The translations under genes were made by a program, and so were the position numbers. Positions 52,056 to 57,007 of a stretch of 64,000 nt of DNA are shown one piece after another (the first letter of the stretch is position 1; each line of letters starts with the position of its first letter). Where the stretch lies: contig JACRMN010000012.1 in assembly GCA_016214955.1 (NCBI GenBank), forward strand, positions 797,901-861,900, in the 5' to 3' direction. Source of the DNA: Deltaproteobacteria bacterium (GTDB lineage: Bacteria; Myxococcota; Myxococcia; Myxococcales; Anaeromyxobacteraceae). The notes beneath the pieces are model-generated. The model was given only the letters and a program-made list of their open reading frames with translations. It did not search any database and was not told the DNA's origin.

Positions 52056-52124
52056 AAACGGGGCAACCCAATTGTGTATCCTGTTCGGCCCCACTACCCC
52101 CGTGGGAACCGGAGAGAAGAGCAC

Positions 52125-53213
52125 ATGAGCCAGAAGAAGCTGAAGGTCGGCGTGCTGGGCGCGACCGGCATGGTGGGGCAGCGTTTCGTCGCGCTGCTCG
52201 AGAACCACCCCTGGTACGAGGTGACGCTGGTGGCCGCCAGCGCCAACTCCGCCGGCAAGTCCTACGCCGAGGCCGTCGGCGGCCGCTGGGCGCTGAAGTC
52301 GGCGATGCCCGCCGCCACCGCCAGGCTCACCGTCCAGAACGCCTCCGACGTGGCGAAGATCGCCCCGCAGGTGGACTTCGTCTTCTGCGCCGTGGACATG
52401 AGCAAGGAGGAGACGGCCAAGCTCGAGGAGGACTACGCCCGCGCCGAGACGCCGGTGGTCTCCAACAACTCGGCCCACCGCGGCACCGCCGACGTGCCGA
52501 TGATGATCCCCGAGGTCAACCCGCAGCACGCCGCCATCGTCGAGGCCCAGAAGCGCCGCCTCGGCACCAGGAAGGGCTTCATCGCCGTGAAGCCCAACTG
52601 CTCGCTGCAGAGCTACGTGCCCGCCCTCCACCCGCTGGCCGAGTTCGGCCTGCGCACGGTGGTGGTCTGCACCTACCAGGCCATCAGCGGCGCCGGGAAG
52701 ACCTTCGAGAGCTGGCCCGAGATGGTCGACAACGTCATCCCCTTCATCAAGGGCGAGGAGGAGAAGAGCGAGAAGGAGCCCATGAAGATCTGGGGCGAGA
52801 TGAAGGACGGCAAGATCGTCCCGGCCACCTCGCCGCTCATCACCGCCCAGTGCCTGCGCGTGCCGGCCACCGACGGCCACATGGCGGCGGTCTTCGTGAA
52901 GTTCGACCGGAAGCCCTCGAAGGACGAGATCCTGGCCCGCTGGAAGGCCTTCCAGGGACGCCCCCAGCAGCTCGCCCTGCCGAGCGCCCCGACCCCGTTC
53001 CTCACCTACTTCGAGGACGAGTCGCGGCCCCAGACGAGGCTCGACCGCGACGCCGGCAACGGCATGGCGGTGACCATCGGCCGGCTGCGCCCCGACACCC
53101 ACCTCGACTGGCGCTTCGTGGCCCTCTCGCACAACACCGTGCGCGGCGCCGCCGGCGGCGCGGTGCTGACCGCCGAGCTGCTCACCAAGGACGGCTTCAT
53201 CGCCGCCAAGTAG
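52125..53213 (+). CDS. asd: Aspartate-semialdehyde dehydrogenase (archaeal/fungal type)
   Basis: This 362-aa enzyme reduces aspartyl phosphate to aspartate semialdehyde for lysine, methionine and threonine synthesis. It has KVGVLGATGMVGQRFV, the catalytic Cys in AVKPNCSLQSYVPAL, VCTYQAISGAGKTF and the catalytic-His region TDGHMAAVFV. The length and motifs are those of the archaeal/fungal class, not E. coli Asd. GGAGAGAAGAGC precedes the ATG at 52125. The stop is followed without gap by a second homologue. Confidence 0.93.
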   Translation: MSQKKLKVGVLGATGMVGQRFVALLENHPWYEVTLVAASANSAGKSYAEAVGGRWALKSAMPAATARLTVQNASDVAKIAPQVDFVFCAVDMSKEETAKLEEDYARAETPVVSNNSAHRGTADVPMMIPEVNPQHAAIVEAQKRRLGTRKGFIAVKPNCSLQSYVPALHPLAEFGLRTVVVCTYQAISGAGKTFESWPEMVDNVIPFIKGEEEKSEKEPMKIWGEMKDGKIVPATSPLITAQCLRVPATDGHMAAVFVKFDRKPSKDEILARWKAFQGRPQQLALPSAPTPFLTYFEDESRPQTRLDRDAGNGMAVTIGRLRPDTHLDWRFVALSHNTVRGAAGGAVLTAELLTKDGFIAAK

Positions 53214-54242
53214 ATGAGCCCACGCCCGCTCCGCCTCGCCCTGGCCGGCGCCACCGGTGCGGTGGGGCGGGCGGTGCTCGAGGTCCTCGAGGACCAGGAG
53301 CCCTCCTTCGCCTCGCTGAAGGCCCTCTCCTCCGGCCGCTCGGCCGGAGGGACGGTCTCCTTCCGCGGCGACGACCTCCGGGTGGAGGAGGCCCGGGCCG
53401 GCTCCTTCCGCGGCTGCGACCTGGCGCTCCTGGCGGTGCCGGCCGAGGCGGCGCGCCAGCTCGGGCCACTGGCCCGCGCCGAGGGGTGCCTGGTGGTCGA
53501 CGCCAGCGCCGCCTGGCGCGACGACCCGGAGGTGCCGCTCTGCCTGCCGGAGGTGAACCCCGACGCCGTGGCCGGCCTCGGGCGCGGCATCGCCGCCGTG
53601 CCCTGCGGCCTGGCCGCGGCGCTGGCGCTGGTGCTCCGGCCCATCCGCGACGCCGCCGGGCTGGCCGCCGTCTCGGCGGTGGCGCTGGAGTCGGTCTCCG
53701 GCGCGGGCCGGCGCGGCATCGAGCAGCTGGAGGCCGAGGCGCTGGCGCTCATGAACGGCCAGGAGCCGGCGCCGCCGACCGCCATCCCCTACCGCATCGC
53801 CTTCAACGTGGTGCCCGACGGCGGGGCCCGCGGCGCCGCCGGCGGGGCCGGCGACGCCGAGCAGCGGCTCTGCGCCGACCTGGCGGCGCTGCTGGGCGCC
53901 GGCCCGAGGGTCTCGGCCACGGTGGCGCGGGTGCCGGTCTTCTATGGCCACGCCGCTGCCGTCAGCCTCTCCACGGCGCGGCCGCTGCCGGCCGCCGAGG
54001 CGCGGGAGCTGCTGCGCCACGCCGAGGGGGTCAAGGTGGTGGACCAGCCGGCCGAGCGGCTCTACCCCATGCCCATGCTCAGCGTGAACGACGACGCCGT
54101 CCACGCCGGCCGCATCCGCGAGGACCCCACGCGCGCGAACGGCCTCGAGCTCTTCCTCTCGGTGGACAACCTGCGCCGCGGTGGCGCCACCAGCCTGGTG
54201 GGGCTCGCGCGCCTCCTCGCACGGCGCCACCTGACGAAGTGA
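53214..54242 (+). CDS. Divergent aspartate-semialdehyde dehydrogenase paralogue (USG-1-like)
   Basis: This 342-aa protein has the bacterial-type Asd fold: LALAGATGAVGRAVLEVLED, ALSSGRSAGGTVSFRG, LESVSGAGRRGIEQLEAEA, VARVPVFYGHAAAVSLS. The usual NPNC motif is replaced by AVPCG, keeping only the Cys, and the TYQ Gln is replaced by Glu; Arg and His of RVPVFYGH remain. It may be inactive or act on another substrate, like USG-1. It begins directly at the asd stop codon, so both are made together. Confidence 0.8.
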   Translation: MSPRPLRLALAGATGAVGRAVLEVLEDQEPSFASLKALSSGRSAGGTVSFRGDDLRVEEARAGSFRGCDLALLAVPAEAARQLGPLARAEGCLVVDASAAWRDDPEVPLCLPEVNPDAVAGLGRGIAAVPCGLAAALALVLRPIRDAAGLAAVSAVALESVSGAGRRGIEQLEAEALALMNGQEPAPPTAIPYRIAFNVVPDGGARGAAGGAGDAEQRLCADLAALLGAGPRVSATVARVPVFYGHAAAVSLSTARPLPAAEARELLRHAEGVKVVDQPAERLYPMPMLSVNDDAVHAGRIREDPTRANGLELFLSVDNLRRGGATSLVGLARLLARRHLTK

Positions 54243-54295
54243 CAAATTGGCAGGCCCTCGGTTCTCCGAGGGCCGCCCTTGACAATCTGGCAGGC
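54240..54295. repeat. Direct repeat flanking a terminator hairpin
   Basis: TGACAAATTGGCAGGC (54240-54255) recurs as TGACAATCTGGCAGGC (54280-54295), 40 bp on. Between them GGCCCTCGG and CCGAGGGCC form a 9-bp stem with TTCT loop (54253-54274), probably the terminator of the tandem asd genes although no long T-tract follows. The second copy gives TTGACA, a possible -35. Confidence 0.5.
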
Positions 54296-54395: not shown

Positions 54396-55319
54396 ATGCG
54401 CACCCGCGTAGCGCTCCTCGCCTGCCTGCTCAGCCTCGCCCCGGTCGCGGCCCTCGCCCAGGCGATGACGGTCTCGCTCTCCAGGGGGAGCGACAGCGTC
54501 ATCAACATCGCCGAGTGCAACGACTCCACGCTCACGTTCACCGTCTCGTCGTGGACGCTCGCCGCGCAGCCCGCCGCAGGGACCTTCTACAAGGTCTTCG
54601 CCACCTCGGCGACGACCTGCCACACCACGCTGGCGCTGCCCGCCAACACGGTCGAGCTCACCGGCGGCTTCCGGGACACTGGCGGCAGCCTGACCGGCCC
54701 CGGCCTCTCCGCGCAGAACGCAGGCTCGGTGCTCACCTCCATCGGGACCTCGTGCACCGTCGGCTCGACCCCCAACCCCCTGCGGCTCTGCGTGCTGGTC
54801 TACGACAGCACGCAGCAGAACGTGGTCGCGGGCGCCCAGGCTTCGGGAAGCATCGCCCTGGACCTCGCGCGGCCCGGGACGCCGGTGAACGTCAGCGCCG
54901 CCTCCGGAGATGGTGCCCTGAACGTCGCCTGGGCCGAGCCTACCTCTGGCACGATGCCGGCCCGGTGGACCGCCGACGCAACTGGAGTGACCTCGATCGC
55001 GGGCCAGTCGTGCCAGGACGCGACGGGGAGCAGTGGGTCCTGCTCGGTGAGCGGGACCACCCAGCGCAGCTGCAGGATACGCGGTCTCGCCAACGACGGC
55101 TGCTACCAGGTGGTGGTCACTGGCTTCTCCACCACCGACAACGCCTCCGTGGCCTCTGCCGTCGCGTACGGCGTGCCCAAGGCCGTCCAGGACTTCTGGG
55201 AGCGTTACCAGGCCGAGGGAGGCCGGGAGGCGGGCGGCTGCGGCGCCGGCGGCGCCTCGCTCCTCTCGCTCCTCGCCCTGGCCTTCGTGGCCCCGCGGCT
55301 CCTCCGGAGGCGCCCGTGA
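54396..55319 (+). CDS. MXAN_2561-type protein with MYXO-CTERM-like anchor
   Basis: This 307-aa protein has a signal peptide (RVALLACLLSLAPVAALAQA), a Ser/Thr-rich beta domain with paired Cys, and a fibronectin III-like region (PGTPVNVSAASGDGALNVAWAEP). The C-terminal tail is GGCGAGG, then LLSLLALAFVA, then RLLRRRP. This tail is the MYXO-CTERM pattern that marks proteins for sorting to the myxobacterial cell surface. CAGAAT lies 10 nt before the ATG. The GTG of the next gene overlaps its stop, tying it to the barrel protein as in Myxococcus. Confidence 0.75.
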   Translation: MRTRVALLACLLSLAPVAALAQAMTVSLSRGSDSVINIAECNDSTLTFTVSSWTLAAQPAAGTFYKVFATSATTCHTTLALPANTVELTGGFRDTGGSLTGPGLSAQNAGSVLTSIGTSCTVGSTPNPLRLCVLVYDSTQQNVVAGAQASGSIALDLARPGTPVNVSAASGDGALNVAWAEPTSGTMPARWTADATGVTSIAGQSCQDATGSSGSCSVSGTTQRSCRIRGLANDGCYQVVVTGFSTTDNASVASAVAYGVPKAVQDFWERYQAEGGREAGGCGAGGASLLSLLALAFVAPRLLRRRP

Positions 55320-56038
55320 AGAAGGCCCTCGCCCTCGCCCTGCTCCTCGCCGCCCCGGCCGCCCAGGCCGAGTCGCCGCGCTGGGGCTCTTTCCACTTCA
55401 AGCTGGGCAGCTACCGGCCCAACATCGACGCCGAGTTCGAGGGGAAGGCCGGCTGCACCGGCGGCGCCGACTGCACGCCCTACGCCGACCTCTTCGGGAA
55501 GGGCGGCTCGATGCTCTACCAGGTCGAGTTCGCCCGCACGCTCCTCAGCGGTGCGGGCACGCTCGACCTGGGCTTCGGCGTGGGCTGGAGCAGCAAGTCC
55601 GCCAAGGGCTTCATCGAGGGCGGCACCACCCGCTCCAGCGACGACACCTCCTTCCGCGTCCTGCCGCTCACCCTCTCGCTCACCTACCGCCTCGACCTGT
55701 ACGCCCGCACCGTGCCGCTCGTGCCCTACGCCCGGCTGGCGCTGGAGCGGTACCAGTGGTGGGCGACGAGCGGCGGAGGCGGCACGGCCTCTGCCAATGG
55801 CCTCTCGGGCAGCGGCGCCACCAACGGCTGGAGCGGGGCGCTGGGCCTGGCCTTCCTGCTCGACTTCCTCGACCCCACGCTGGCGCGGGAGATGGACCGC
55901 GACATCGGCATCAACGGCACCTACCTCTTCGTCGAGGCCGGCAAGGCCAAGGTGAACGACTTCGGCTCCAGGAAGAGCTGGGACCTCTCGCCCGACAAGA
56001 GCGTCACCTGGTCGGGCGGCCTGCTCTTCGTCTTCTGA
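55316..56038 (+). CDS. MXAN_2562-type outer-membrane beta-barrel protein
   Basis: This 240-aa protein has a signal peptide (KKALALALLLAAPAAQA) and then alternating hydrophobic strands: GSFHFKLGSYRPNIDAEF, YQVEFARTLL, LDLGFGVGWSSKS, LPLTLSLTYRLDLYAR. It ends in Phe (GGLLFVF), the outer-membrane insertion signal. The CTGGADCTPYADLFG loop with two Cys is a mark of the MXAN_2562 group. GTG start overlapping the upstream stop (GTGA) implies a fixed stoichiometry with the MYXO-CTERM protein. Confidence 0.75.
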   Translation: MKKALALALLLAAPAAQAESPRWGSFHFKLGSYRPNIDAEFEGKAGCTGGADCTPYADLFGKGGSMLYQVEFARTLLSGAGTLDLGFGVGWSSKSAKGFIEGGTTRSSDDTSFRVLPLTLSLTYRLDLYARTVPLVPYARLALERYQWWATSGGGGTASANGLSGSGATNGWSGALGLAFLLDFLDPTLAREMDRDIGINGTYLFVEAGKAKVNDFGSRKSWDLSPDKSVTWSGGLLFVF

Positions 56039-56059: not shown

Positions 56060-57007
56060 ATGCTCCTGCTGGCCCTGCTCCTCTCCGCCGCGCCGGCCCC
56101 CGCGCCGGCGCTCCCCTCCGCCCCGCTGCCGCTCCAGGCCGAGGCCGAGCGCGCCATCCCGGCGCCGGCCGCCGGTGCGCTCATGGAGGTCTCCACCGGC
56201 CGGCTGCTGGCCCTGGTGCGGCCCGAGGAGCTCGTCACCCACGCCCACGCGCCCGGCTCGCTCATGAAGCTGGTGGCCGCCTGGGCGGCGCTGCGGGCCG
56301 ACCAGGGCGCGCGCAGCTTCGAGTGCACCGGCAAGGACGTGCACCGGGGCAAGGTGCGCACCTGCTGGCGCCGCGACGGCCACGGCCGCATCGGCCTGCG
56401 CCAGGCCCTGGCCGACAGCTGCGACATCTGGTTCTACAAGGTGGCCCGGCTCCTGGGCCCGCGGCGGCTGCTGCAGGCGGCGCGGGAGATGGGGCTCGGC
56501 AGCGCCACCGGCTCCGACGTGCCCGGCGAGGTGGCCGGGGCGCTCCCCGAGCCGCTCCCCGAGCTCTCCTCGCCCGAGTTCGCGGTGGGGCGCATGGACG
56601 GGCTGGCGCTCACCGGCCTGCAGGCCCTCTCGCTCATGGGGGCGCTGGCCAACGGCGGCACGCTCTGGTCGCCGCGGCTGGCGGGGCCGCCGGCCCAGCG
56701 CGGCAAGGTGGGCACCCGCGACGAGCTGGAGGACCTGTCGCGGGCGCTGCGCGACGCGGTGCAGAGCGGCACCGGCGCCGCCGCCAGCGACCTGCCCATC
56801 GCCGGCAAGACCGGCACCGCCCCGGTGCCGGGGCAGGAGGAGCCGCTCGCCTGGTTCGCGGGCTTCGCGCCCGACGACGCGCCCCAGGTGGCGGTGGTGG
56901 CCTTCGTGCCCGAGGGTCTGGGGGCGCGCGACGCGGCCGCGGCCGCGAGCGACCTCACCCGCGTCTACTTCCAGTGGCGCGACCGGGGCGGCCCGTCCGC
57001 CCGCTGA
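56060..57007 (+). CDS. Penicillin-binding transpeptidase domain protein
   Basis: This 315-aa exported protein has a signal peptide and only a transpeptidase domain. The active-site motifs are SxxK in APGSLMKLVAA, SxD in ADSCDIWFYKVA and KTG in IAGKTGTAPV. The order and spacing fit class B PBPs, but the dimerisation domain and membrane anchor are missing. It may crosslink peptidoglycan, act on a special crosslink, or bind beta-lactams. It lies 21 bp after the barrel gene and converges with the nitrilase gene. Confidence 0.82.
   Translation: MLLLALLLSAAPAPAPALPSAPLPLQAEAERAIPAPAAGALMEVSTGRLLALVRPEELVTHAHAPGSLMKLVAAWAALRADQGARSFECTGKDVHRGKVRTCWRRDGHGRIGLRQALADSCDIWFYKVARLLGPRRLLQAAREMGLGSATGSDVPGEVAGALPEPLPELSSPEFAVGRMDGLALTGLQALSLMGALANGGTLWSPRLAGPPAQRGKVGTRDELEDLSRALRDAVQSGTGAAASDLPIAGKTGTAPVPGQEEPLAWFAGFAPDDAPQVAVVAFVPEGLGARDAAAAASDLTRVYFQWRDRGGPSAR

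Follow-up and report, generated by a model that had tools for sequence, protein, structure and literature searches.

A MYXO-CTERM-type surface protein and an outer-membrane barrel encoded as overlapping genes or as one open frame in the Myxococcota

We analysed a gene pair in a 64,000-nucleotide stretch of DNA (the window) from a member of the Anaeromyxobacteraceae. The pair encodes a MYXO-CTERM-type surface protein related to MXAN_2561 (A) and an outer-membrane barrel of the MXAN_2562 family (B). We found that A and B are tightly coupled across the phylum, either as two overlapping genes, as in the window, or within one open frame. We consider it probable that the two proteins form a single stoichiometric, 1:1 cell-envelope module resembling TraAB, and that the single chains are polyproteins that are cut twice. 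Slightly better than even, in our judgement, are the chances of a broader proposal, namely that this is an outer-membrane polyprotein strategy, in which two cuts at the inner membrane would give fixed 1:1 delivery and which would interchange with a four-base gene overlap, and that the CFI-box is a second sorting signal of the MYXO-CTERM class. What is new lies outside the window, in the recurrent single-chain form and in the exchange of the tail for a CFI-box; the window copy is an ordinary split member. The features of the window copy are collected in Table 1.

Table 1. Features of the A-B locus and its upstream region, in window coordinates
Feature	Position	Strand	Remarks
Asd-family gene, upstream neighbour outside the module	53214..54242	+	NF011456, 283.8 bits
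Near-palindrome upstream of A-B, TGACAAATTGGCA	54240..54252	+	its TGA doubles as the Asd-family stop codon
Second copy of the near-palindrome, TGACAATCTGGCA	54280..54292	+	one mismatch
A, MXAN_2561-like surface protein, 307 aa	54396..55319	+	ATG 54396, TGA 55317-55319; signal peptide, Cys-bearing N-terminal beta domain, FN3-like domain, MYXO-CTERM-type tail
A, Sec signal peptide	54396..54458	+	predicted cut after ALA, residue 21; inferred by eye from the sequence
A, tail GGCGAGG + hydrophobic segment + RRRP	55233..55316	+	tripartite anatomy as described in PMC11980579
A, candidate modified Cys282	codon 55239-55241	+	sequence reading
GTGA, four-base overlap of A stop and B start	55316..55319	+	form found at 61/70 split loci
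B, MXAN_2562-family outer-membrane barrel, 240 aa	55316..56038	+	GTG 55316, stop 56036-56038
B, Sec signal peptide	55316..55369	+	predicted cut after AQA, residue 18; inferred by eye from the sequence

The first-pass annotation had described a GTGA overlap, a GGCGAGG/hydrophobic/RRR tail and a barrel ending in Phe, all of which we confirmed at 54396-56038. It had also likened the pair to MXAN_2561-MXAN_2562, and profile searches bore this out to different degrees for the two proteins. Window A matches NCBIfam NF045522, the MXAN_2561 family, over nearly its whole length (residues 4-306) at 96.3 bits, below the curated equivalog cut-off of 150, which was exceeded in 90 of the 195 genomes of the phylum. 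Since the gene position is the same, we take window A to be a divergent relative of the MXAN_2561 family rather than a curated member. Its C-terminal tail, GGCGAGGASLLSLLALAFVAPRLLRRRP, follows the MYXO-CTERM anatomy, with a Cys motif, a transmembrane segment and an Arg-rich end in this order (GGCGAGG...LLRRRP). The short MYXO-CTERM profiles TIGR03901 and TIGR03382 were not among the matches of A at E values up to 10, and TIGR03901 had no match in the window's whole genome at E 0.001, as was also the case for the controls. The tail is therefore a putative MYXO-CTERM assigned by anatomy together with the family match. Pfam gave no match at cut-off for window A or window B; the FN3 family (PF00041, cut-off 25) was above cut-off in three of six fused relatives, with a maximum of 36.4 bits, and not in window A itself. 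Four Cys of A are conserved in 80-90% of 118 aligned rows across both tail types described below. Also conserved across both is a DF(Y/W)xxY...GG stretch around F318/Y322 of the frame, just N-terminal of the sorting Cys, which is a candidate contact or recognition site.

Window B matches NF040596, the MXAN_2562 family, at 194.8 bits over residues 24-239 and exceeds the curated cut-off of 100. Its C-terminus reads LLFVF. The structure model of window B has eight long strands (pLDDT 77.7, pTM 0.73) and matches OmpA (9fzc, E 6.6e-6), OmpX (1qj9, E 1e-4), Ail and NspA, and B is thus predicted to be an 8-stranded small barrel of the OmpA/OmpX type. A sequence search for a relative with a solved structure returned five chance-level matches, the best with an E value of 0.71. 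The barrel part of five relatives (L085, L096, L094, L081 and L182) also matches the Bd0486 barrel family, at up to 56.2 bits (cut-off 370), hinting at barrel relatives outside the phylum.

We examined how strictly the two families go together. B has a profile match in 180 of the 195 genomes, so that the pair appears as a very widely kept surface module of the phylum. The A profile matches in 184/195; it often gives several matches per genome, so this figure overstates true A, and neighbours were counted instead. A lies directly upstream of B, or in the same frame, in 176 of the 180 genomes with B. Our own profiles on extracted stretches classified 43 genomes as fused and 68 as split and adjacent, and profile-match coordinates showed adjacency in 62 of 63 further genomes, for a total of 173. 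The count also includes two genomes in which part of B adjoins A on one contig (G067 and G137) and one in which inspection showed A and B to be fused (G175). In three others (G029, G120 and G153) A and B, or pieces of them, are on separate contigs, at what look like contig breaks. The sole separated genome of the 180 is G105, where A and B are on different contigs, both away from contig ends, and B is still 3' of the Asd-family gene. It looks as if A has left the locus in this genome, where A and B can do without adjacency. Six of the 15 genomes that lack B match the A profile (G051, G145, G141, G107, G186 and G001); A of G051 stops at the end of a 3909-base contig, and the match in G145 has an E value of 1.9e-38. 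Second A-B loci occur in G034 (L065, split) and G054 (L076, fused), and second copies in G155 (L106) and G156 (L108) are A-like paralogs with no B match within the extracted stretch. The coupling is stricter than the annotation had guessed, and the outcome that would have spoken against it, a separate occurrence of the two families in the majority of genomes, was not seen (1/180 separated).

The form of the overlap is equally constrained. Among the 70 split loci analysed, NTGA stands at the A stop with its NTG in the B frame in 61, window included, and irrespective of the B frame in 62. The upstream Asd-family gene ends in this four-base form at 27 of 90 loci, and from this comparison the A-B overlap is not due to chance. 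The single locus with its NTG outside the B frame is that of G004 (L083, a split locus with a CFI-box tail); its A end is odd, and a frameshift or an assembly error may have interrupted what was a single-chain gene. A possible but unlikely explanation of the coupling is that A and B are merely operon partners with separate jobs, co-expressed and co-inherited without contact, in which case fusions would be neutral because the halves are cut apart. The Asd-family gene, for which no contact is expected, is likewise linked: in 88 of the 113 genomes covered (22/30 families) it precedes the pair in the same orientation. The separation in G105 points the same way. However, the A-B link is tighter than operon linkage, given the in-frame four-base overlaps, and a single frame occurs in at least one genome of 18 of the 30 families with B.

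The region upstream of A is also widely conserved. At 52122-54242 of the window two different Asd-family genes lie in tandem, one of the TIGR00978 type followed by the nearer one, which matches NF011456. A conserved near-palindrome lies between this gene and A; the TGACANNTTGNCA pattern has one match in the window's whole genome, upstream of A-B. Of 114 upstream regions, 57 carry a looser form of the element, TGACA-N(2-4)-TGnC, in the interval from the Asd gene to A, with 1.05 expected by shuffling and 1 in a coding control window. Its TGA is the Asd-family stop codon in 32 of the 49 loci where that gene was also found. The element is a possible operator. Of the four downstream genes tested, none had a match outside the window's own family in the stretches of limited length that were compared. 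A gene at 56060-57007, which starts 21 bases after B, encodes a short protein (315 aa) consisting, as far as matched, of just a PBP2-like transpeptidase region; it matched next to A-B at no more than 2 of 118 loci, the window's own included.

Across the phylum we found A and B in one open frame at 45 loci in 44 genomes, from 18 of the 30 families with B; 44 of these loci were classified by script and that of G175 by inspection. The linker between the two halves has a constant order: Cys tail, hydrophobic segment, Arg/Lys loop, second hydrophobic segment, cleavage-like site (for example ARA, AHA or AQA) and barrel. We scored linkers for a pair of hydrophobic segments with at least two R/K in between, a Cys ahead of this pair and a cleavage-like xxA site behind it. 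All 45 linkers had all four features, compared with 5.2% of shuffled linkers on average, where the four criteria and the loose cleavage pattern had been set after inspection of the sequences. The predicted cleavage site lies a median of 11 residues from the barrel core in the 45 fused proteins and 12 in the 67 of 70 split proteins that have such a site. Furthermore, dN/dS of the linker was 0.15-0.56 in seven of eight pairs, the eighth being saturated and dS exceeding 1 in some, indicating that the linker is under purifying selection in the A-B frame.

These frames are very improbable as mere assembly artefacts, or as genes in which B is started separately within the frame. Many of the genomes are indeed fragmented assemblies, and about 31 of the 45 fused loci have a possible ATG, GTG or TTG before the internal signal peptide. 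Against this, the frames recur at 45 loci of 18 families, most of the larger families occupy one side of a branch on the B tree, and in the absence of a stop codon the ribosome that translates A must run into B. In 35 of the 45 loci there is no ATG in the region where a separate B would have to start, and about 14 have no ATG, GTG or TTG there, an approximate figure because the cleavage site was set too far downstream in some rows (e.g. L074, L084, L100 and L163). By comparison, 68 of the 70 split loci have a start codon at the expected place. Selection on the linker in that very frame also argues against artefact.

In a tree of 116 B sequences, the fused or split state changes at least eight times and the tail type at least four times, with gain and loss not distinguishable. 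The families f17 and f3 are the exceptions to the one-sided grouping of the larger families; L161, a repeat copy of the G105 locus, and the fragmentary G012b were left out of the tree, and G105 was given no state. Within a single genus (g44), G158 and G159 are split and G160 is fused, and G016 has one fused and one split copy. The tail is MYXO-CTERM-like at 30 single-frame loci and a CFI-box at 15. CFI-box tails were found at 19 loci in total, 15 fused and four split, G004 being among the latter. The CFI-box profile NF041770 (CFI_box_CTERM, cut-off 40) matches in the middle of the protein in four of six scanned fused relatives, at 70.0-90.4 bits, and has no match in window A. In fused L182, TIGR03382 matches mid-protein at 19.1 bits, over its cut-off of 15.85, and in fused L163 the TIGR03901 match (14.9 bits) remains below the cut-off of 20. 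The MYXO-CTERM and the CFI-box replace each other at a single position of one orthologous protein, and for this reason the CFI-box may be a sorting signal of the same class; the exchange offers a concrete functional hypothesis for this domain.

The model of the fused L182 chain (pLDDT 68.7, pTM 0.54) predicts the FN3-like domain and the barrel well, with Ig/FN3-like strands, a tail helix and eight barrel strands. Most of the linker is below 50, and at this low confidence the model gives no readable A-B contact. The best 50 Foldseek matches of the model were mostly tandem FN3/Ig proteins, plus OmpA. In principle such a chain could stay uncut, the barrel anchoring A covalently at the surface as a small display system of the autotransporter type and the split form keeping the contact without the bond. 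This reading, which is close to the view of the first-pass annotation, draws on the presence of A and B in one chain in 44 genomes. We regard it as quite improbable, since every one of the 45 linkers retains the two hydrophobic segments, the basic loop and the cleavage-like site. Two uncut membrane helices would be expected to keep the chain in the inner membrane, the linker of a covalent display protein should be soluble and lack a second signal peptide, and the predicted barrel is too narrow to export a domain.

A candidate protease for such tails, the myxosortase MrtX, has matches in most of these genomes. In Myxococcus xanthus, cleavage of the TraA MYXO-CTERM by MrtX depends on the conserved Cys pair (PMC11980579). 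The window's genome has a MrtX gene (196 bits, cut-off 180), and MrtX matches were found in 182 of the 195 genomes at E <= 0.001, 124 of them over the cut-off. No MrtX match at E 0.001 was obtained in ten genomes that have the A-B pair, five fused (G028, which is 98% complete, G005, G019, G022 and G025) and five split (G004, which is 100% complete, G106, G143, G162 and G192). This may reflect assembly gaps, the use of another protease, or that MrtX is not needed. The window's genome also encodes an exosortase E/protease of the VPEID-CTERM type (L192, G000:C19; 181.6 bits, cut-off 150), which by its profile match appears to be a second sorting system.

Our preferred model, a 1:1 module made either from coupled genes or from a twice-cut chain, would work as follows. 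Sec would export A, whose C-terminal helix would keep it in the inner membrane; MrtX would cut beside the invariant Cys, which is probably lipidated, and A would then pass to the cell surface. B would use a signal peptide of its own for export and be inserted as a small barrel of eight strands. At the outer membrane the two would be 1:1 partners, as TraA and TraB are, A providing an extracellular FN3/Ig-like part and B the membrane partner. Split lineages would obtain equal amounts of A and B through translational coupling at the NTGA overlap, and the others by making both in a single chain. The single chain would carry an internal sorting signal, MYXO-CTERM or CFI-box, followed by an internal signal peptide, and its pair of hydrophobic segments would fold into a hairpin whose Arg/Lys loop is cytoplasmic. 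One cut by MrtX, or by a related enzyme, and another by signal peptidase I, on either side of the hairpin, would set A and B free. The natural single chains make both the partnership and the processing directly testable.

An 8-stranded barrel is too narrow for the passage of a folded domain. We rejected secretion of A through B, as the predicted barrel has only eight strands. MYXO-CTERM proteins have been proposed to be lipidated on Cys and to reach the surface via type II secretion (PMC11980579), and on that basis A should not need the barrel as an anchor. The annotation had suggested that the barrel displays or anchors its partner; the coupling on which it built stands, and a role of B as display pore or sole anchor of A is unlikely, given the Cys tail and the eight strands. 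By analogy, a 1:1 partnership like that of TraA and TraB would fit better than display of A by B.

MXAN_2561 and MXAN_2562 (NF045522 and NF040596) are the known families closest to the pair, with the same gene order as in the window. Their NCBIfam descriptions, an anchored protein and an outer membrane beta-barrel protein, mention no function, coupling or fusion. We found no paper on either in the literature searched, outside which lay Haft 2024, Sah 2020 and the supplements of PMC11980579, and the name CFI-box occurs in no paper of that literature. Among the matches listed in our literature search, the term 'internal signal peptide' was absent and nothing concerned the A-B pair, nor was there anything beyond the myxosortase paper. 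By its name, midcut-by-XrtH (NF033207) is another sorting signal cut mid-protein, and one fused protein matches it at 16.6 bits; the cut-off is 45, far above this score, which argues against membership, and the name denotes an exosortase H system rather than MrtX.

TraA-TraB of M. xanthus, which acts in outer-membrane exchange, resembles A-B in combining a MYXO-CTERM surface protein with a barrel partner. The traA and traB open reading frames overlap by four bases as well (PMC3325183). TraA and TraB form 1:1 complexes in which part of TraA is predicted to lie atop the TraB barrel, as stated in a preprint (PMC12045341). Unlike these proteins, A has no match to PA14 or Cys-rich repeats and B none to an OmpA domain in NCBIfam and Pfam, and membership of A-B in TraAB was rejected for lack of these three matches. 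By analogy, A-B may work like TraAB without being a member of it.

An internal MYXO-CTERM before a barrel has already been published for one protein, MXAN_5598, which according to PMC11980579 combines an adhesin, an internal MYXO-CTERM, a barrel and an OmpA domain; its authors suggested a gene fusion and processing of the N-terminal part. The single chains found here can likewise have a MYXO-CTERM lying internally, after the surface part and before the barrel. Whereas MXAN_5598 is one protein, described with an OmpA domain, here an orthologous pair switches between the single chain and overlapping genes, and its tail, unlike that of MXAN_5598 as described, can also be a CFI-box.
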